Virus record (IMG/VR): IMGVR_UViG_3300005529_000093
Coordinates: 1-25,317 of that record
Length of the DNA stretch: 25,317 nt
Origin: a virus
Strand: one strand, 5' to 3'
The number at the start of each line of letters is the position of its first letter. Position 1 is the first letter of the stretch. Below, in pieces: positions 8,882-23,432 of the stretch. Below the pieces are notes generated by a model. It did no database searches. It saw only the letters and a list, made by a program, of their open reading frames with translations, and was not told where the DNA came from. Both the position numbers and the translations under genes were made by a program.

Positions 8882-9430
8882 TCAGGTGCCGATCGCGATC
8901 CAGTTGACCTTCTTGGAGAAGGAACCGGCAGCGGCCGGCGTGGGATCGGTACCCGAGGTGTTCTGCCAAGTCTTGAGCAGGAACGAGCCTGCGGCCGGCG
9001 TGCCGGCCTGGTCCCCGATCGCGCAAGTTACCCACGAGTTCGCGTCGGCAACATCGGTCTCATAGCTGCACACGACCGCGACGACGGTCGTCAAGCCCGA
9101 TGCGATGGTATCGCTCGCGGAAGCGGTGGTCGCCTGCCCGCGCGCCAGTTTGTAGCCCGACGCGACGGCGGCCGGGGCCGTGCTCAGCACCGCGGTGCGG
9201 TCGGTGCCGGCGATCTTCAGCGCGCCGCCCGAGGCGACGTTGAACACGCCACCGGATTCCACCTGCCAGGTGCAGCCCGAGCCCGCGTGCCACAGCGATC
9301 CGCCCTGGTCCATGTAGCAGGCCACGTTCTGGGCGAACGCCGCGATCGGCTCCTTGACGAGCGAGCCGATGCCGAGACCGGCCAGAACCGCGCCGACGAA
9401 CGCGCCGACGAAGGCGAGAGATTTGCGCAT
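8882..9430 (-). CDS. Exported beta-rich phage protein with N-terminal signal
   Basis: 182-aa protein. Residues 1-34 form a basic-hydrophobic signal (MRKSLAFVGAFVGAVLAGLG, then a second hydrophobic patch ending AAFAQ, a plausible signal peptidase I site). Four cysteines follow (38, 53, 121, 136), consistent with disulfides in an exported protein. Residues 40-75 carry short Ser-Gly-Gly repeats (QGGSLW, SGCTWQVESGG, VFNVASGG), as in beta-solenoid fibres. The C-terminal half (SDTIASGLTTVVAVVCSYET through SFSKKVNWIAIG) resembles a domain often met in phage head-region proteins. GGAGGG lies 7 nt upstream of the ATG. It could be a virion decoration protein or a surface protein acting against superinfection. 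Confidence 0.55.
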   Translation of the reverse strand: MRKSLAFVGAFVGAVLAGLGIGSLVKEPIAAFAQNVACYMDQGGSLWHAGSGCTWQVESGGVFNVASGGALKIAGTDRTAVLSTAPAAVASGYKLARGQATTASASDTIASGLTTVVAVVCSYETDVADANSWVTCAIGDQAGTPAAGSFLLKTWQNTSGTDPTPAAAGSFSKKVNWIAIGT

Positions 9431-9498: not shown

Positions 9499-10863
9499 TC
9501 AGGCGGATTGTTTCAAGAGATGCGGATGCACACTCGGCCGCGAATGATCATAGCGGCGCTCGATCTCGGCCGCGCTCGGAAGACTCGCCCGTGGCGTCAT
9601 GCGCACCTTGGCAAGTCCGTCGGGCTGCGGTTCGATCGACACTTCGACGGCGTCATAGCCGTAGAGCCGGGTCGCCTTGGGCTCGATGCCGTCGAGCAGC
9701 GAGGAGTGTCCGGAGGTGCCGAGACGAATGCCCTTGGCGGCGGCATAACCGAGCCAGAACTCGACGCAGGCCCGGCCCTTCTCGGCCTGGTGACTGTGTG
9801 CATAGCTGAAATCGCAGCCGAACATCGAGATCTTCTCGACGCCGAGATGCACCGCATAGGCGACCGCGTAGGCCGCGGTCGAATTGAAATAATCGTAGCC
9901 GAGATGATTGATCACGTCTTCGAGCGGGAACGCGACGCAGCCCGGATAGCCCGCGCGCACCACGCTGGTGTAGATCGGGCCCGGATGCTTCTTGAGCCAG
10001 ACCAGCATCGAGGCGACCATGCCGTCGGGATCCGCTGCGGCGCGCACCTCCTGCACGGCGACGTCGTCCATGTGAAAGATGCGATCACAGGCGAGGACGT
10101 CGCCCAGCGCATTGATCGCCCACACCTCGTCGAACATGGTGCCGCGACCGCCCGCACATTTCACGTGTTCGATATAGGTCGCCAGCGACGGGCCGAGCCC
10201 GAGGATCGCGACGTGGGCCGGCGTAGGGGCGGACGTCTTCTGCAGCACTGGATGTTCCTTTCGCTCGGGTTTCATGATCGCTGCGGCGCGTCGCGCGTGC
10301 ACGATCAGAGTTCGGCCGGAGTGAGGACCGACCTCGGATTGTGGCCCACGCTGACCCATCACCTCGACAAGCTCCCAGCCGGTCTCGGCGAGCAACGCCG
10401 CGAATTCCGGGCGGGTGTAGTGACGATGATGAAACTTGTAATTCTTGAACGGAAAGTGTGTCTCGTTCGGAACGCTGGCGAGCAGGACCGGCGCCGCTTC
10501 GCGCAGCGCGCGCAGCATCGGCCGCGGGTCCTCGAGATGCTCGATGGTCTCGAAACAAATCGCGGCGGCGACTTGCGTGCCAACCGGCATGCTGAACGAG
10601 CTGGCATCCGCAACGAGCCGCGTCACCAGCGGATGATGATAGTGCCGCCCGGCGTAGGCGATCGCGTCCGGATCGTTGTCGATTGCGAGCACCGCATGCC
10701 CGGCCTCGGCCAGGATCTTCGCGCCGTAGCCGACGCCGCAGGCAAGATCGATCACGCGACTGCCGGGCGGCAAGATGCGCACCGCCCATTCGTAGCGCGC
10801 GACATGGTCGCGCCGGATCCCGTCGAGGGTCGGCGCGACCTGTCTTTCACCGGATTCCAACAC
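9499..10863 (-). CDS. Fusion: SAM methyltransferase + MptE/DUF115-like domain
   Basis: 454-aa protein with two parts. Residues 20-190 are a class I SAM-dependent methyltransferase: motif I is VIDLACGVGYGAKI (37-50), IDNDPDAI (61-68) is the acidic strand-2 motif, and FETIEHLEDP (104-113) is motif III-like. Residues 215-410 look like a Rossmann-like domain of the MptE/DUF115 kind: VAILGLGPSLATY, VWAINALGDVLACDRIFHMD, YFNSTAAYAVAYAVHLG, ISMFGCDFSYAH. Such domains occur with glycan or surface modification genes and are also seen as separate phage genes. The start is GTG 10863, 2 nt after the upstream stop. Internal Met197 has no ribosome site, so a single polypeptide is likely. It may modify a virion protein or host surface glycan. 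Confidence 0.65.
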   Translation of the reverse strand: MLESGERQVAPTLDGIRRDHVARYEWAVRILPPGSRVIDLACGVGYGAKILAEAGHAVLAIDNDPDAIAYAGRHYHHPLVTRLVADASSFSMPVGTQVAAAICFETIEHLEDPRPMLRALREAAPVLLASVPNETHFPFKNYKFHHRHYTRPEFAALLAETGWELVEVMGQRGPQSEVGPHSGRTLIVHARRAAAIMKPERKEHPVLQKTSAPTPAHVAILGLGPSLATYIEHVKCAGGRGTMFDEVWAINALGDVLACDRIFHMDDVAVQEVRAAADPDGMVASMLVWLKKHPGPIYTSVVRAGYPGCVAFPLEDVINHLGYDYFNSTAAYAVAYAVHLGVEKISMFGCDFSYAHSHQAEKGRACVEFWLGYAAAKGIRLGTSGHSSLLDGIEPKATRLYGYDAVEVSIEPQPDGLAKVRMTPRASLPSAAEIERRYDHSRPSVHPHLLKQSA

Positions 10864-17642: not shown

Positions 17643-17670
17643 TTGGCTTCGCTGCGGGAATCCATACAAT
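17643..17670 (+). promoter_or_regulatory. Possible sigma70-type promoter
   Basis: TTGGCT (17643-17648), 16-bp spacer, TACAAT (17665-17670): the -10 is one base from consensus and the -35 matches four of six. It points to the rightward operon but would leave a leader of about 380 nt. It is weak evidence and the only promoter-like pair I could pick out in this region. Confidence 0.25.
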
Positions 17671-17928
17671 GATCGTCAGCGAAGGGACCGCTCGACGTGC
17701 GACGCGCGCAACCCCGCAGAAAAACCATCGCCCCAAAGGGGCGGGCTGTCTGACAAAGCGAATTGCCCCTGTGCTCGACGCGCAGCCACTCGCGGGACCG
17801 ACTGTCTGACCCGCCGCGCTCCGCCATCGTGAGATGCCCGAGTCGTGAACCGCGCCGAGCACATCTAAGCGCAATTCTTCATCTCTGGATCTGACGCTAC
17901 CAACCTCGCAAAAGTCTCCCCGCGCCAT

Positions 17929-17949
17929 TTTGTTTGACGTTCAAACAAA
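17929..17949. promoter_or_regulatory. Operator-like perfect dyad
   Basis: TTTGTTTGA-CGT-TCAAACAAA: perfect 9-bp arms around a 3-bp centre, AT-rich in a GC-rich setting, in the divergent region about 107 bp before the first rightward start. This is the form of a dimeric repressor site (HTH type). The cognate protein is not visible; the small possible winged-helix protein at 18056 is one candidate. Confidence 0.5.
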
Positions 17950-17983
17950 CCGCGCGGCCGCGAGGGTCAGGATCTCAGCCTTG

Positions 17984-18020
17984 CGCCGCATCGTGACGGT
18001 CACACGTAAACGATGCGGCG
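17984..18020 (+). promoter_or_regulatory. Leader stem-loop of the rightward operon (11-bp arms)
   Basis: CGCCGCATCGT (17984-17994) pairs perfectly with ACGATGCGGCG (18010-18020) around a 15-nt loop. It lies just upstream of a second small hairpin and the ribosome site of the first rightward gene, matching in layout the two-stem elements found in later gaps. Confidence 0.5.
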
Positions 18021-18024
18021 ACGG

Positions 18025-18055
18025 GGTGCGACCCGCACCGACAAGGGGACCCAAC
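18025..18055 (+). promoter_or_regulatory. Small hairpin plus ribosome site, diverged element variant
   Basis: GGTGCG-acc-CGCACC (18025-18039) is followed by gACAAGGGGACCCAAC and ATG 18056. The same design, a GGTGC/GCACC stem directly followed by ACAAGGAGACC, recurs in front of five downstream genes with a different loop and one-base changes. It is probably the operon-leading version of that element. Confidence 0.55.
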
Positions 18056-18271
18056 ATGACACGGGAACAGAAACTCGCCGCGATCCGCGCCATTCTCGAC
18101 GCGATCGTCGAGGGCGTGAAAGCCGGCGGCTCGATGGGCACGCCGGGCGGCGTGCTCTACGCCGCGCTGCTCGACAAGATAAATCTCAGCCAGTTCGAGG
18201 CGATCATGGCCGCGCTCGTGCAGAGCGGCCGACTGCGCCGACAGGGCGAACGCTATTTCGCCGCCAACTGA
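18056..18271 (+). CDS. Small protein, possible winged-helix fold
   Basis: 71-aa protein: MTREQKLAAIRAILDAIVEG, then VKAGGSMGTPGGVLYAALLD, KINLSQFEAIMAALVQSGRL and RRQGERYFAAN. Three helices followed by a GRL..QGERYF hairpin look like a minimal winged-helix domain, with the last hairpin as the wing. Function as a DNA-binding protein is an inference from this pattern only. ATG 18056 is chosen for the ACAAGGGGACC ribosome site. A longer in-frame version from 17930 would read through the leader stems. It is the first gene of the rightward operon and could regulate it. Confidence 0.6.
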   Translation: MTREQKLAAIRAILDAIVEGVKAGGSMGTPGGVLYAALLDKINLSQFEAIMAALVQSGRLRRQGERYFAAN

Positions 18272-18282
18272 GGGAGACAACG

Positions 18283-18540
18283 ATGGCAAACGTTCGCGTC
18301 ACCGATCGCGCGCTCTGCATCGTCAAGGCGCGCCACAAGGCAACCGACAATCGCGGCTTCATCTATTGCGACAGCAACGTCGGACGACGCGGCGAGATTC
18401 GCTGGTATCGCGTGCTGATGGTCGGGCGCAAACGCCTCGCCCACAGCACGATGAACCGGCAAGTCGCCGAGACTTGGATCGCCGACATGGCCGGCCCGTC
18501 GGACGAATTCGAGGTCGAGCACATTCATCCCGGCATCTGA
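18283..18540 (+). CDS. Small hypothetical protein
   Basis: 85-aa protein not recognised: MANVRVTDRALCIVKARHKA, then GFIYCDSNVGRRGEIRWYRV, LMVGRKRLAHSTMNRQVAET and WIADMAGPSDEFEVEHIHPGI. It is mixed beta/alpha with a basic centre. GGGAGA about 6 nt upstream of ATG 18283 serves as ribosome site. It is 11 nt after the previous gene, the only junction in the first part of this operon without a hairpin element. Its stop is followed 2 nt later by the first full repeat element. Confidence 0.55.
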   Translation: MANVRVTDRALCIVKARHKATDNRGFIYCDSNVGRRGEIRWYRVLMVGRKRLAHSTMNRQVAETWIADMAGPSDEFEVEHIHPGI

Positions 18541-18542
18541 TC

Positions 18543-18609
18543 GAGCGCAGCACAGAGGGGCGGCGAGTTGCCGCCCTTCGATGGTGCGCTTGGCACCAAC
18601 AAGGAGACC
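18543..18609 (+). repeat. Inter-gene two-state RNA element, copy 1
   Basis: Box 1 GAGCGCAGCACAGAG starts 2 nt after the upstream stop. The hairpin GGGCGGC-gagtt-GCCGCCC follows, then box 2 TTCGATGGTGCGCTT. Box 2 overlaps the small stem GGTGC-gcttg-GCACC, and aACAAGGAGACC leads into ATG 18613. Boxes 1 and 2 can pair at 12 of 15 positions, including 2 G-U. Confidence 0.85.
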
Positions 18610-18612
18610 AGC

Positions 18613-18846
18613 ATGAAATACCGAATCGCACAGTGCGTGGACGGTCAAATCGTCACGACCGAGCCGGCCGATATTTTCGCCTGGGCGGAAGTGGCCGGGT
18701 TCCAGATCGTGAAACTTAGCAACAACCCGCGCCAACGCGCCGAGCTGCAGGGTCAGCCGATATTCGTCTCGCTCTGCGGGCCGATGTGGGACGGCGATGC
18801 AGTGCGTTACGAGGATCAGCGCAGTAACGACATTCTAAGCACATAA
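18613..18846 (+). CDS. Small hypothetical protein
   Basis: 77-aa protein not recognised: MKYRIAQCVDGQIVTTEPAD, IFAWAEVAGFQIVKLSNNPR, then QPIFVSLCGPMWDGDAVRYE and DQRSNDILST. The GPMWDGDAVRYEDQ ending resembles small accessory proteins seen on alphaproteobacterial plasmids, from memory and unverified. ATG 18613 is set by AAGGAGACC about 6 nt upstream, in copy 1 of the element. TAA is followed 2 nt later by copy 2. Confidence 0.6.
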   Translation: MKYRIAQCVDGQIVTTEPADIFAWAEVAGFQIVKLSNNPRQRAELQGQPIFVSLCGPMWDGDAVRYEDQRSNDILST

Positions 18847-18848
18847 AG

Positions 18849-18921
18849 GAGCGCAGCACAGAGCCGATCGCGCCAGAAACACGGTCGGTTCGATGGTGCG
18901 CTTGTGCACCACAAGGAGACC
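18849..18921 (+). repeat. Inter-gene two-state RNA element, copy 2
   Basis: Box 1 GAGCGCAGCACAGAG starts 2 nt after TAA. The hairpin CCGATCG/CGGTCGG (7 bp, one U-G pair, 11-nt loop) is unrelated in sequence to copy 1 but again pairs. Box 2 TTCGATGGTGCGCTT, small stem GGTGC-gcttgt-GCACC and ACAAGGAGACC follow, leading to ATG 18926. Confidence 0.85.
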
Positions 18922-18925
18922 AGCC

Positions 18926-19333
18926 ATGAACGACTATGAAGCAAAGCAGGAACGACGGCGCGAACGTCTGCGGGCCCGCGCCGAGCGCCTGCATGCCGAG
19001 GGCGTCGCCCGCGTCAAGCGCGGCGACGATGCCCTGCATCTCATCCCGCTCGGGCAACCGATCCTGATCGGGCATCACTCAGAAAAATCGGATCGCGCGT
19101 ATCGCAATCGCGCCCTCAACAACATCGGCAAGGGCTACGAGTTGCAGACCGAGGCGCGCCAAGTCGCCGCACGCGCCGAAGCGGTCGGCACCGGCGGCAT
19201 TTCTTCCGACGATCCCGAGGCGGGCGCAATCATGATCGCCCGGCTCGTCGCCATCGCCATCTTCACCGCCGAGCTCGTGGTGATCTTCGGGATCGTCGAG
19301 CATCAGTTCGTGGGCGTGCTGATGTACCCCTGA
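18926..19333 (+). CDS. DUF3560-like protein with C-terminal membrane helix
   Basis: 135-aa protein. Residues 1-100 match the style of DUF3560: MNDYEAKQERRRERLRARAE, GQPILIGHHSEKSDRAYRNR, a helical KGYELQTEARQVAARAEAVG, then GGISSDDPEA. DUF3560 proteins are common on conjugative plasmids and some phages and have no settled function. The charged coil that usually follows SSDDPEA is replaced here by a hydrophobic segment (about 103-123, LVAIAIFTAELVVIFGIV), probably a membrane span, then EHQFVGVLMYP. So the protein may be membrane-anchored. ATG 18926 is chosen for the element's ribosome site. A strong pair of GC hairpins follows the stop. Confidence 0.7.
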   Translation: MNDYEAKQERRRERLRARAERLHAEGVARVKRGDDALHLIPLGQPILIGHHSEKSDRAYRNRALNNIGKGYELQTEARQVAARAEAVGTGGISSDDPEAGAIMIARLVAIAIFTAELVVIFGIVEHQFVGVLMYP

Positions 19334-19339
19334 AACGCA

Positions 19340-19406
19340 GGCCCCGCCGAAGCGCTCGCGCGCCACGCGGGGCCCCGGGGAACCCCGCCGCGCTGCCGCG
19401 GCGGGG
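19340..19406 (+). promoter_or_regulatory. Tandem GC hairpins after DUF3560-like gene
   Basis: First hairpin: GGCCCCGC (19340-19347) with GCGGGGCC (19367-19374), loop 19 nt. Second: CCCCGCCGCG-ctgc-CGCGGCGGGG (19383-19406), 10-bp perfect arms. No T-run follows. The pair stands where the other gaps carry the repeat element and is again followed by GACAAGGAGACC, but the two conserved boxes are missing. Confidence 0.6.
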
Positions 19407-19443
19407 AAACCCCATCTGCCCGCGACAAGGAGACCAAGCCTTG

Positions 19444-19479
19444 ATGCGTTTTAGCACAGCGGACAGGCCCCAAATCTAG
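19444..19479 (+). CDS. Possible 11-codon minigene
   Basis: ATG 19444 follows GACAAGGAGACCAAGCCTTG, the same strong ribosome site used by neighbours, with about 11 nt spacing. It reads MRFSTADRPQI then TAG. A second copy of CAAGGAGACC then precedes the next real gene. It may be a leader peptide, a decayed gene start, or unused. Confidence is low. Confidence 0.25.
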   Translation: MRFSTADRPQI

Positions 19480-19506
19480 CATCGAATCAGCAAGGAGACC
19501 AGCCAC

Positions 19507-19698
19507 ATGGCCCGCAAACCCCAGGCCCCGAGCCTGATGGATCGGCTGCGCGAACGCATCGCCGCCGAGCCAAATCCGCCGCCGCCGCTCACGCAATCGA
19601 AGGGCTCGGCGGCGATCATCCGCAACCGCCGACGCCTCGGGCTTCCCGATCTGCCGACCGACGCCGAGCGCGCCGAATGGGCGAAGCGTCGCAAGTGA
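19507..19698 (+). CDS. Small basic hypothetical protein
   Basis: 63-aa protein rich in Arg, Pro and Ala: MARKPQAPSLMDRLRERIAA, EPNPPPPLTQSKGSAAIIRN, RRRLGLPDLPTDAERAEWAK and RRK. No domain is recognised and it is probably partly disordered. The basic composition would permit nucleic-acid binding. CAAGGAGACC about 8 nt upstream sets ATG 19507. The stop is followed 3 nt later by copy 3 of the repeat element. Confidence 0.6.
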   Translation: MARKPQAPSLMDRLRERIAAEPNPPPPLTQSKGSAAIIRNRRRLGLPDLPTDAERAEWAKRRK

Positions 19699-19701
19699 CA
19701 A

Positions 19702-19770
19702 GAGCGCAGCACAGAGCCGCCGCCCGCAAGCGGCGACTCGATGGTGCGCTACTGCACCAACAAGGAGACC
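19702..19770 (+). repeat. Inter-gene two-state RNA element, copy 3
   Basis: Box 1 GAGCGCAGCACAGAG starts 3 nt after TGA. The hairpin is CGCCGC-ccgcaa-GCGGCG. Box 2 reads CTCGATGGTGCGCTA, so the G-U at the inner end of the box helix becomes G-C, a paired change, while the outermost pair is lost. The small stem is GGTGC-gctact-GCACC. aACAAGGAGACC leads to ATG 19776. Confidence 0.85.
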
Positions 19771-19775
19771 CGACA

Positions 19776-20096
19776 ATGACTGATCGATCAGCGCAGATCG
19801 CCGCAATCAAACAATTGCGGGAATACGATCACGTGTTCATATCGCCCGAAGGCGTCGCGCATTTTACCGCGCCGTTCGGATTCAAGGGCACGATGGTTCG
19901 TTTGAAGGCGAACCCGAACGATCCCAAGGGACTGACGCTTGAGAACGGCGCGGAGGAAGCCGAAGGGGCGGATGCAGCTTCACTGGCCGCCGAGATTTGC
20001 CGCCATCTGGGCGTCGAATGTCCTGCGATGCTCGGACGCGGCTCTCAACTCCGTGTCTGTTGCGACGTCTTGCTCGAACATCTCGAAAAGAACTGA
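19776..20096 (+). CDS. Small hypothetical protein
   Basis: 106-aa protein not recognised: MTDRSAQIAAIKQLREYDHV, FISPEGVAHFTAPFGFKGTM, VRLKANPNDPKGLTLENGAE, then a helical second half (AASLAAEICRHLGVECPAML, RVCCDVLLEHLEKN). It has three cysteines in the C-terminal half but no clear metal motif. The first half could be a small beta barrel. The start is set by the ribosome site in copy 3. The stop is 2 nt before copy 4. Confidence 0.6.
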   Translation: MTDRSAQIAAIKQLREYDHVFISPEGVAHFTAPFGFKGTMVRLKANPNDPKGLTLENGAEEAEGADAASLAAEICRHLGVECPAMLGRGSQLRVCCDVLLEHLEKN

Positions 20097-20098
20097 TC

Positions 20099-20172
20099 GA
20101 GCGCAGCACAGAACGCCGTCCGCAAAAATTCGGGCGGCGTTCGATGGTGCGCTTGTGCACCGACAAGGAGAC
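20099..20172 (+). repeat. Inter-gene two-state RNA element, copy 4
   Basis: Box 1 reads GAGCGCAGCACAGAA, with the last base A instead of G. Its partner in box 2 (TTCGATGGTGCGCTT) is T, so G-U becomes A-U: a paired change. The hairpin is CGCCGTCCG/CGGGCGGCG with an 8-nt A-rich loop. The small stem is GGTGC-gcttgt-GCACC. gACAAGGAGACT leads to ATG 20178. Confidence 0.85.
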
Positions 20173-20177
20173 TGAAC

Positions 20178-21842
20178 ATGAGTACCACGCAAACGACAGT
20201 GCCGTTGTCGCAGCTTCGGCTCGACCCGGTCAACGTTCGCAAGGGCGATCGGGGTCCCGATCCCGAGTTCGTCGCATCGATCAGAGCCAACGGCGTCGAG
20301 ATGCCGCTGGCGGCGCGACCGAACGGGACCGGCTATCTCGTCACCGACGGCGGCAAGCGCCTCGCAGCGTTGCAGGCGCTCGCCGAGCGAGGCGACATCC
20401 CCGCCGATCACCCGGTGCCGGTCGTCGTCAAGAAACGCACCGATACCCAGGCGAAGGAACTCAGCCTGACCTTGAACGTGATCCGGTCCGGCATGCACCC
20501 GGTCGATGAATTCCGGGCGCTCGCTGAGCTCCATCGCGACAAATCGAAACCGCTCGACGTGGATGCGATCGCGACTCGCTTCGGCTGGCCGCGCAAGCAG
20601 ATCGAGCAGCGCCTCGCGCTGGGTTCGCTAGACGACAAGATCCTCGACGCCTGGCGCCAAGGCACGATCAACGCCGACACCGCCAAGGCGTTCACCCTGT
20701 GCGCGAGCAAGAAGGCGCAAGTCGAGCTGTTCGACAAGCTCGGCAAGCACGGCCGCATCGATGACTGGGCCGTCAAATCCGCGTTGCGCATCGGCCACGA
20801 CAACCCCGGACGATTTCTCGCCGTCATCGGCGTCGAGAATTACATCAAGCGGGGCGGCCGGGTGACCGAGGATCTGTTCGGGACGGATCACGTCGTTTCC
20901 GACCCGAAACTCGTACACGCCATGATCGAGGAGAAGCTCGCCGCCGTGCGCGACGAGCTCCTCGCCGAAGGCTGGGCGTGGGTCATCGATCGCCCGAACG
21001 ACTATTATCTCTACGGGCGCATCCAAGGCACGATCAAGACGCCGAAGGAGAAGCGCGAGCGCCTGAAAGCGCTCGAAACGCTGCTCAACGCCGCCGAGGA
21101 AACCGACGAGGACGATCCCGAGGCTCTCGCCGCGCTCACGGAGCATACCGTGCTGCAGGGCGAGATCGCGCGGGCGTCCTTCACGCCGGAGCAAAAAACC
21201 AAGTCCGGCGTGTTCGTCCATCTCGAACGCGAGGGTTCGATCAGCTTCGAATTCGGCCGGATCAAGCCCGCCGCGCGTCGGGAGATCGAACGCGAAAAGA
21301 CGCGGAGCGTGGCGAGCGGGACCGAAGGCAAGACGAAAGCCAAGTCGGCGACGCCCGTCATCTCCAACGCGCTCAAGATGCGGCTCGACGTGCAGCGCAC
21401 GAAAGCGACCAAGCAAGCGCTGCTCGCCGATGCTCACGGCAACGCACTGGGCGATCTGGCGGCGAAGATCATCGCTTCGCAGATCACGCCGGATCGACCC
21501 TACGCGATGCACGTGAGCGATCGCGACATGGTCGCGCTGCGCAAGACCATCACCGGCAAGGTGATGAACCAAGCGCTGCGCGATTGCTTCGACGCCAAGG
21601 ATTATTTCGAGTCGGCGCCGAAGGGACTGGTGCTCGCAGCGATCCGCGACGCCGTCAACCCCGACGAGGCGCGCAAACTCCTCGGCAAGAAACGCGGCGA
21701 GATCGCCAAGTTCGCGATCGCAAATGTCGCCAAGACCAAGTGGCTCCCCGCCGAGCTGCGGACCGAGCATTACGATGGCCTGGCCGCCAAGCCGAACGGC
21801 AAGCCCAAGACCAAATCGACCAGCAAGTCGAAGCGCACGTAA
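20178..21842 (+). CDS. ParB-like protein (large)
   Basis: 554-aa ParB/Spo0J-like protein. The N-terminal ParB domain (about 5-115) has LSQLRLDPVNVRKGDRGPDP, ASIRANGVEMPLAARPN, a variant nucleotide-binding box DGGKRLAALQAL (usual form GERRxRA) and SLTLNVIRSGMHPVDEFRAL as box II. A KorB-like helix-turn-helix region follows (DVDAIATRFGWPRKQIEQRL, ALGSLDDKILDAWRQG). The middle and C-terminal parts (about 230-554) are long, helical and charged, ending in a Lys-rich tail. Such long ParB-like proteins occur on plasmids and phages. No ParA is visible in the window, so a role in partition is not shown; DNA binding or nuclease-like action is possible. Copy 4 supplies the ribosome site. Confidence 0.8.
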   Translation: MSTTQTTVPLSQLRLDPVNVRKGDRGPDPEFVASIRANGVEMPLAARPNGTGYLVTDGGKRLAALQALAERGDIPADHPVPVVVKKRTDTQAKELSLTLNVIRSGMHPVDEFRALAELHRDKSKPLDVDAIATRFGWPRKQIEQRLALGSLDDKILDAWRQGTINADTAKAFTLCASKKAQVELFDKLGKHGRIDDWAVKSALRIGHDNPGRFLAVIGVENYIKRGGRVTEDLFGTDHVVSDPKLVHAMIEEKLAAVRDELLAEGWAWVIDRPNDYYLYGRIQGTIKTPKEKRERLKALETLLNAAEETDEDDPEALAALTEHTVLQGEIARASFTPEQKTKSGVFVHLEREGSISFEFGRIKPAARREIEREKTRSVASGTEGKTKAKSATPVISNALKMRLDVQRTKATKQALLADAHGNALGDLAAKIIASQITPDRPYAMHVSDRDMVALRKTITGKVMNQALRDCFDAKDYFESAPKGLVLAAIRDAVNPDEARKLLGKKRGEIAKFAIANVAKTKWLPAELRTEHYDGLAAKPNGKPKTKSTSKSKRT

Positions 21843-21843
21843 C

Positions 21844-21915
21844 GAGCGCAGCACAGAGGGGCGGCGGCAACCCCGCCGCCCTTCGATGGTGCGCTTTCGC
21901 ACCGACAAGGAGACC
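21844..21915 (+). repeat. Inter-gene two-state RNA element, copy 5
   Basis: Box 1 GAGCGCAGCACAGAG starts 1 nt after TAA. The hairpin GGGCGGCGG-caacc-CCGCCGCCC has 9 bp. Box 2 is TTCGATGGTGCGCTT. The small stem is extended to GGTGCG-cttt-CGCACC. gACAAGGAGACC leads to GTG 21920. Confidence 0.85.
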
Positions 21916-21919
21916 AATC

Positions 21920-22153
21920 GTGAAAACCCAACTCGACCTGTTCGTTCCGACGATCGAACGGTCGGCGGAAATCCCGGCGGGGATCGTCTATTCCTTCGCC
22001 GGGCGCCCGCTGCTGGTAGTGAAATGCTACGGCAGCGATCCCGCCGCGCCGGTCATCGTCGAGGAGCTCGCGAGCTTCTCGCCGCGCGTCTTGCGCGGCC
22101 AGCTCGCGCTGTGGTCGGCCGACGGCGTCTCGCGCGCGATGCGGAGGCGCTGA
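21920..22153 (+). CDS. Small hypothetical protein, GTG start
   Basis: 77-aa protein starting at GTG 21920: (M)KTQLDLFVPTIERSAEIPAG, then IVYSFAGRPLLVVKCYGSDP, AAPVIVEELASFSPRVLRGQ and LALWSADGVSRAMRRR. It is beta-rich with a basic end; no family is recognised. The start is set by AAGGAGACC in copy 5. It lies 2 nt before the next gene, so the two are probably translated together. Confidence 0.6.
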   Translation: MKTQLDLFVPTIERSAEIPAGIVYSFAGRPLLVVKCYGSDPAAPVIVEELASFSPRVLRGQLALWSADGVSRAMRRR

Positions 22154-22155
22154 AC

Positions 22156-23046
22156 ATGGCCGCCATCATCGAACTGCCGGTCCATCGGATCATTCCCGAT
22201 CCGAACCAACCGCGGAAAACCTTTCCGCCGGACTACATCAAAGACCTCGCGGCGTCGATCAAGCGCCGCGGGCTGATCCAAGCCATCAGCGTGCGGCCAC
22301 TTCCGCAAGCCAAGCGCAACGGGGCGCTCTACATCATCACCGCCGGCGAGTGCCGCTGGCGCGCGCACGTCCTGCTCAAGCGCAAGACCATCCCGTCGAT
22401 CGTCGACGCGATCGACGAACGCGAAGCGCGATTGCGCTCGATCGTCGAAAATCTGCAACGCCGCGACATGAACCCGATCGAGGAGGCGCGCGCGTTCCAA
22501 CTGCTGATCGGCGACGACTACAGCGTCGATCAGATCGTCGAGGAGCTCGGATTGAAAAGCCCGGCCATCGTTCGACAGCGGCTCGATCTGCTCGACTTGC
22601 TGCCGGAGCTCCAGCAGCTGGTGCTGAGCGGCAATCTCGCCGTCAACATGGCGTGGGGCGTCGCCCAGGTCGCGCATCCGTTGCAGATGCGATTGATGCG
22701 CGAAATCCAGAGCGGCAAGCTGCGCACCAGCGAACAAGTCAAGCACGCCGGCATCGCCTTGCGCGACGCCGCCGCCCAGCTCGACGCGTTCGCTTCGCTG
22801 CCGAAGGCCTCGCCCCGCGATCTCGCGAAAGTCTCGCGGCTCGAGGAGATGATCGGCTCGATCGCCGAGATGGTCATGGCGGGGTTTCAGGACGGCGAAT
22901 GCGTCGCCGCGCAGCGGGTCTCCCCGGATCGTGTCAAGCTGATGGCCGACAAGCTGGCGCTGATTCGCAAGCACGTCTATCAAATGGAGCACGCGTTGCG
23001 TTGCGTCGCCACGCAAACGGAAATCAAACTGGAGACGACGCAATGA
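22156..23046 (+). CDS. ParB-like partition/DNA-binding protein (canonical motifs)
   Basis: 296-aa ParB family protein. Box I is ITAGECRWRA (61-70, close to the GERRxRA CTP-binding motif) and box II is ENLQRRDMNPIEEARAFQLL (98-117). A helix-turn-helix lies at about 122-145 (YSVDQIVEELGLKSPAIVRQ). A linker (LPELQQLVLSGNLAVNMAWG) and a helical C-terminal half (LEEMIGSIAEMVMAGFQDGE, LMADKLALIRKHVYQMEHAL) follow. These are features of chromosomal and plasmid ParB that load on parS. No parS-like site or ParA was recognised here. It follows the previous gene by 2 nt and overlaps the ASCH gene as ATGA. Confidence 0.82.
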   Translation: MAAIIELPVHRIIPDPNQPRKTFPPDYIKDLAASIKRRGLIQAISVRPLPQAKRNGALYIITAGECRWRAHVLLKRKTIPSIVDAIDEREARLRSIVENLQRRDMNPIEEARAFQLLIGDDYSVDQIVEELGLKSPAIVRQRLDLLDLLPELQQLVLSGNLAVNMAWGVAQVAHPLQMRLMREIQSGKLRTSEQVKHAGIALRDAAAQLDAFASLPKASPRDLAKVSRLEEMIGSIAEMVMAGFQDGECVAAQRVSPDRVKLMADKLALIRKHVYQMEHALRCVATQTEIKLETTQ

Positions 23047-23432
23047 AAGTCCTCACCATCCATCAGCCGTGGGCGTGGCTCATCGCCCGCGGCATCAAGG
23101 ACGTGGAGAATCGCCGCTGGCCGATCAACTATCGCGGCCTGCTGCTCGTGCACGCCGGCATCGGCTCATCCTCAGTGCCGATCGAGGTGACCGATCTTGT
23201 GCGCCACATGCGGGGCGACGAGCCTCTGCCGATCGGCGGCGTGATCGGGCTCGTCGAGATCATCGATTGCGTGCGATCTCACCCGAGCAAGTGGTTTCAC
23301 GGACCGTTCGGCTTCGTGCTGCGCAACGCCCGCGAACTGTCGTTCACGGCGTGTCGCGGCCATCAGGGTCTGTTCGACCCGCCCGCCGCGCTCGCCGAGC
23401 TCGTCACGGCGATCCGCACCCACACGATCTGA
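23043..23432 (+). CDS. ASCH domain protein
   Basis: 129-aa protein with a clear ASCH fold pattern: MKVLTIHQPWAWLIARGIKD, VENRRWPINYRGLLLVHAG (residues 1-39), the family's I.QPWA.li..G.K..EnR.W...yRG.llihA. The middle GVIGLVEIIDCVRSHPSKWF and the closing GPFGFVLRNARELSF strand also fit. ASCH domains bind RNA or modified nucleosides, and some act as amidohydrolases on acetylated cytidine. The role in the phage is not known. It starts inside an ATGA overlap with the ParB gene and is the last gene before the terminator. Confidence 0.85.
   Translation: MKVLTIHQPWAWLIARGIKDVENRRWPINYRGLLLVHAGIGSSSVPIEVTDLVRHMRGDEPLPIGGVIGLVEIIDCVRSHPSKWFHGPFGFVLRNARELSFTACRGHQGLFDPPAALAELVTAIRTHTI

Follow-up and report, generated by a model that had tools for sequence, protein, structure and literature searches.

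Start-associated sequences (SAS) and extended start-associated sequences (ESAS) are the described systems nearest to a repeated intergenic element that we analyzed in a 25.3-kb virus record, IMG/VR record IMGVR_UViG_3300005529_000093 (positions 1 to 25,317, the whole stretch of DNA analyzed and hereafter the window). In cluster K mycobacteriophages, Pope et al. described imperfect inverted repeats of 17 bp that precede SAS sites and have variable spacers, and found little support for hairpins in the mRNA (PMC3203893), while a similar arrangement with other sequences occurs in cluster EF Microbacterium phages (PMC7302621) and the ESAS of Adephagia contain putative SigA-like promoters (PMC11373665). 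Like SAS/ESAS, the element occurs many times per phage directly upstream of start codons, and joins a conserved ribosome-site repeat to an imperfect inverted repeat with a variable spacer before a subset of genes. However, its ribosome-site repeat, CAAGG(A/G)GAC, differs from the cluster K consensus GGGATAGGAGCCC, and the element shows RNA covariation, a third strand that allows a second fold, and no promoter-like site within any copy. An inverted repeat is present upstream, and blastn in phages gave weak partial matches only. We file the element as a new variant of this kind and not as a member of SAS/ESAS.

Copies of the element and base changes in its stem

From 5' to 3' the element consists of strand A (GAGCGCAGCACAGA), a variable hairpin, strand B (TCGATGGTGCGCTT), strand C (GCACC) and the ribosome-site repeat CAAGGAGAC. 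Each copy fills the gap between an upstream stop codon and a downstream ribosome site and is a cis-acting RNA on the mRNA strand. The window holds five full copies, all within one plus-strand operon and in intergenic gaps of about 70-80 nt each, and one partial copy:

18543..18597, plus strand: copy 1; strand A 18543-18553, inner hairpin, B (GGTGC) 18583-18587, C (GCACC) 18593-18597; R1 model, 69.7 bits
18849..18910, plus strand: copy 2, before the DUF3560 gene; B 18895-18899, C 18906-18910; R1 model, 66.2 bits
19702..19758, plus strand: copy 3; B 19743-19747, C 19754-19758; R1 model, 67.8 bits
20099..20161, plus strand: copy 4, before a 554-aa ParB-like gene; B 20146-20150, C 20157-20161; R1 model, 69.3 bits
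21844..21903, plus strand: copy 5; B 21888-21892, C 21899-21903; R1 model, 71.4 bits
17984..18039, plus strand: partial sixth copy, ahead of the operon's first gene; hairpin CGCCGCATCGT/ACGATGCGGCG and a lone B:C hairpin GGTGC-GACCC-GCACC

The stop codon of the open reading frame upstream of copy 1 ends 2 nt before strand A. Strand A is absent from the partial copy, which was read from the sequence and not detected by the models. A first-pass annotation of the window had given coordinates for the five copies, and these held in all cases: every copy is on the plus strand within an intergenic gap, with CAAGGAGAC and then a start codon behind it. A reversed control pattern had 0 matches in the window record. 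Boxes 1 and 2 of that annotation are our strands A and B. As it had described, 12 of their 15 positions pair, the stem being interrupted by a G.G mismatch and a CA/GA internal loop (the outermost pair of copy 3 is G.A), and the innermost pair varies as G-U, G-U, G-C, A-U and G-U in copies 1 to 5. The hairpin between the boxes had been said to differ in every copy and always to pair: its arms do pair, with one G-U included in copy 2, but copies 1 and 5 are identical over 24 nt in the left half. The duplex formed by A:B and the hairpin is irregular and spans 20-26 nt (23 copies), and in most copies a 1x1 mismatch and a 2x2 internal loop occupy fixed places within it.

Covariation in this duplex became much stronger as the number of copies rose from 10 to 23 to 28. 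In the first alignment (10 copies, not fitted to a model), 98.9% of cells were paired and the covariation score was 0.40, compared to at most 0.12 when the partners were slid. Among 28 distinct copies, in an alignment fitted to the covariance model and hence leaning towards structure, 96.9% of cells were paired, 116 cells carried double changes, double changes occurred in 15 of the 19 pairs, and the score was 0.68 compared to at most 0.13 with slid partners. The inner hairpin and the outer A:B stem both covary. Furthermore, a core scan with the pattern CAGCACAGA..TCGATGGTG only, in which the outer stem was unconstrained, gave matches that split cleanly into five distinct loci with 7-10 consecutive inner pairs and 48 others with at most 2. 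The outer stem made 4-5 of its 5 pairs (mean 4.4) in the five loci compared to about 2 of 5 in the other 48 (Mann-Whitney p = 1.5e-4), and because the scan made no demand on the outer stem, this test is independent of any alignment fit. The outer stems of these loci include GTGTGCA/TGCACAT, GTGAACA/TGTTCAT and AAAGCCACA/TGTGACTTT. Across the copies there were 52 G-U cells and 3 A-C cells, demonstrating that selection acts on the coding-strand (mRNA) RNA.

We regard it as almost certain that the element is a structured RNA family, and the proposal that selection maintains a new inter-gene RNA element is thereby supported. The first-pass annotation had named two findings that would speak against this proposal, a loss of covariation with more copies and recent duplication on one element only; instead, covariation grew, and the carrier phages and bacterial genomes have almost no genes in common. 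Neither did the element belong to a named Rfam family: Rfam 15 gave no match at gathering score in the window, none to any copy up to E 5 (17900-22200) and none up to E 1 in six relatives. Searches of the literature turned up no account of the element.

Covariance models and pattern scans identified the element outside the window in eleven viral contigs (about nine distinct) and in eight bacterial genomes, the bacterial samples being Alphaproteobacteria. Pattern scans of IMG/VR gave true relatives in three contigs, L050, L297 and L347; loose patterns matched mostly by chance inside genes, matches were retained only with a stable inner hairpin and an intergenic context, and control patterns read backwards had 0 matches. 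With the ten-copy covariance model, G001 and G002 each yielded two copies and G003 further ones (six in all there), and seven copies came from six of 297 genomes sampled from the order of a Bradyrhizobium genome. A second model found copies in two further bacterial genomes (385 of the class), and one second-model genome had been in the order sample yet gave no match there. The frequencies of 2% (order sample) and 0.5% (class sample) are lower bounds, with searches over more than 40 genomes scoring few candidates each, and the E-values of the covariance models are rough. L413 and L415, both viral contigs, carry a member whose outer stem is AATTGCA/TGCAATT, and a second copy was later identified in L477. 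BLAST searches of named plasmids and phages with the element yielded no member, nor did model searches at five loci of named plasmids that carry a related ParB gene; contigs with protein relatives of the 554-aa and DUF3560 genes lacked the element as well.

Competing partners of strand B

The element had initially been described as one long interrupted stem. The stem is present, but a static single fold is incomplete, in that strand B (GGUGC) can also pair with strand C (GCACC) just downstream and the A:B and B:C pairings are mutually exclusive. This second pairing is present in all five window copies, where it was overlooked on first reading; each of the 23 copies tested forms all 5 of its pairs, the variants GCGCC and GCATC remaining paired through wobbles. 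Matching changes on all three strands were found in G003:12917, in which B is GGUGG, C is CCACU and A is altered too, and in L477:2284. Patterns that demand GGTGCGC and GCACC cannot prove B:C, and its support comes from the window copies, the model-found copies and the core scan, where the B:C helix was present in 4 of the 5 unselected new loci compared to 5 of the 48 controls (p = 0.002). Furthermore, where B serves both partners it is almost constant and nearly all changes fall on A, as expected if B is held by both partners; farther out, both sides change freely. Thus, B very likely has two competing partners in a two-state pairing. An alternative pairing of the GCAC of strand A with B was rejected, being lost in three G003 copies.

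For ten copies, folding predictions made A:B more stable than B:C by 3.4-8.6 kcal/mol, and in 4 of 23 copies the two were within 0.6 kcal/mol of each other. For an RNA cut just before GGUGC, and hence lacking A, the predicted probability of B:C was at least 0.8 in 22 of 23 copies.

Genes around the element

In 19 of 21 copies, strand A begins between -3 and +2 nt from the end of the preceding stop codon. The spacing between C and the ribosome site ranges between 1 and 41 nt. All copies are oriented towards the downstream gene. In bacterial genomes the element lies mostly between an upstream anti-restriction gene, either ArdC (ArdcN and zincin domains) or ArdA-like (just under the Pfam cut-off), and a downstream ParB-like gene; in the ArdC-ParB loci C is 16-22 nt ahead of the ribosome site, and the copy in L408 precedes a DUF4440/SnoaL-like gene. 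No gene family common to more than two carrier phages was found (BLASTP 1e-5; several contigs partial), which argues against inheritance of the element along with a particular set of genes; any protein it needs must be supplied by the host, or none is needed. The copies contain no sigma-70-like promoter, the sole promoter-like site lying outside them at 17643, and no intrinsic terminator (hairpin and T run), and the numbers of promoter-like and terminator-like sites equalled those in shuffles. A small upstream reading frame starting at the ATG of box 2 was also rejected, as L403, L404 and L408 are without the ATG and the frame is not conserved.

The tailed-phage genes of the window (terminase, portal, protease, capsid) are on the minus strand, and the plus-strand operon (about 18056-23432) comprises small genes, DUF3560, two ParB-like proteins and an ASCH protein. 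Its further features are:

18600..18608, plus strand: ribosome-site repeat CAAGG(A/G)GAC, start-associated
20178..21842, plus strand: 554-aa ParB-like protein (HTH_ParB; phrog_7783), downstream of copy 4
22156..23046, plus strand: ParB protein (ParB_N, HTH_ParB)

The genes that follow the copies are unrelated, as had been noted, but they are not all small, copy 4 preceding the 554-aa gene. The ribosome-site repeat also starts at 18042, 18912, 19426, 19491, 19761, 20164 and 21906; all eight occurrences in the window are on the plus strand ahead of starts, with 0 on the minus strand, and those at 19426 and 19491 occur without the element. These two are located in a 170-nt gap (19334-19506) together with GC-rich inverted repeats, and the repeat at 19426 precedes an 11-codon frame (ATGCGTTTTAGC...TAG) that is perhaps a gene remnant or encodes a tiny peptide. 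Before many genes the ribosome-site repeat is extended in a form particular to each phage, AAGGGACCAAGC in L297, AAGGAGAGAG in L347 and CAAGGAGACC in the window, and L050 likewise has its own.

Related arrangements were observed elsewhere. L297 carries a second class of intergenic element (8928-9000 and 9574-9660), in which CGCAGAGTG, a hairpin and AATGCGGCA stand ahead of a ribosome site and AATGCGGCA is followed by a covarying second hairpin, GCCGG-TCACAAG-CCGGC or GCTGG-TCACAAG-CCAGC. In the Mesorhizobium plasmid MesoLj131c2 (L430:2425-2490), the gap before parB reads CCCGCCGC...GCGGCGGGG...CCCCGC and looks like the same A-hairpin-B-C competition built from unrelated sequence. In Bradyrhizobium barranii pCC829_1 (L429:2450-2500), a lone hairpin GGTGCAATTCAGCACC (GGTGC-AATTCA-GCACC) precedes parB, and strand A was not found there.

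Possible roles of the two folds

As a tentative first choice, we infer that the element is an intercistronic processing and stability signal. The irregular A:B duplex would be recognized by a host double-strand-specific nuclease, most likely RNase III, and a duplex of this length with mismatches at set places fits a substrate of such an enzyme. Cleavage within the 3' side of the internal loop, immediately ahead of GGUGC, would give the upstream mRNA a 3' hairpin; the same cut would remove A and allow B and C to fold as a 5'-terminal hairpin that protects the downstream mRNA and leaves the ribosome site exposed. The duplex would form later whenever a terminating ribosome at the adjoining stop codon sat on A, and the polycistronic message of the phage or mobile element would be split into separately stabilized pieces. 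In phage T7, RNase III sites recur between the early genes of a polycistronic message as irregular hairpins that contain internal loops and measure about 20 bp. The element is likened to them by its layout, an irregular duplex of about 20 bp between genes; it is unlike them in its alternative B:C pairing, and to our knowledge no alternative downstream pairing has been described for the T7 sites. Several points weigh against a processing signal. While A is available, A:B has an advantage of 0-9 kcal/mol over B:C (23 copies), so that most copies could form B:C only once A had been removed or masked. L470, an unselected member, is without strand C, and we know of no need of RNase III for a conserved internal-loop sequence of such a kind. 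Moreover, predicted access to the ribosome site is about equal in the two states (mean 0.57 compared to 0.56 with A masked), which disfavors a simple on/off masking switch and led us to reject a ribosome-site-masking riboswitch or thermosensor, and the tight link to the stop codon is equally expected of a translation sensor.

A sensor of that kind, in the form of a translation-coupled two-state switch, ranks next after the processing signal; both are conjectural, and we consider the switch possible but doubtful. The terminating ribosome would cover A, B would pair with C and initiation at the next gene would change, with A:B reforming once the ribosome is gone. It is placed second because A sits under the terminating ribosome, and both the conservation of B:C and the fixed start of A beside the stop codon, whereas the spacing between C and the ribosome site is loose, are consistent with it. 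However, the predicted accessibility of the ribosome site barely changes, C stands well ahead of that site in the ArdC-ParB loci, and compact phage gaps could by themselves set A beside the stop codon. In a broader and still speculative form, the element may be a two-state module widespread at the gene boundaries of integrated elements and unrelated phages: the ribosome completing a gene would decide which fold the following gap adopts, and a host factor that recognizes the conserved internal loop might mediate this effect.

Recognition of the internal loop (AGCACAGA/UCGAUGGU) by a host RNA-binding protein or RNA polymerase factor, which would choose one fold as a regulator or in put-like antitermination, seems unlikely. 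The core internal loop recurs in unrelated phages beside a paired outer stem of differing sequence, and the carrier phages share no gene, but loop positions differ among subfamilies (AGCUAG, AACGCAG, GCCCCAG) and there is no Rfam match and no known ligand or protein. The put antiterminator RNAs of phage HK022 are about 70 nt long, with two hairpins, and lie near promoters; the element is set apart from them by description, not sequence, in that its two helices exclude each other and its copies lie between genes. A passive structured spacer or recombination boundary that eases phage gene swaps would require folding only, and could account for unrelated genes after the element in phages with almost no genes in common. 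It would leave the retention of B:C unexplained, and outer stems that differ within G003 (GAGCGCA, GAGTGCA, GAATGCA, AAGCGCA, GTTGCCA) are poor for homologous recombination; we consider it improbable. Least probable by far, and already disfavored, is an inverted repeat acting at the DNA level, for instance a ParB binding site or a promoter as inside the Adephagia ESAS: although several copies adjoin ParB-like genes, the excess of G-U over A-C cells, the orientation of every copy towards the downstream gene, the varying spacer length and the lack of a sigma-70-like promoter in the copies argue against it.

Start-associated repeats in phages have been on record since 2011 without a function or a clear RNA structure; the base changes reported here establish a fold and point to two competing folds. 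The presence of the element in unrelated phages and in bacterial ArdC/ArdA-ParB loci makes its function testable with compensatory mutants, and a 55-position covariance model can annotate it in unclassified phage and plasmid genomes. If the two-state module set by the ribosome proves true, the element would be a general, previously undescribed device of intercistronic control.

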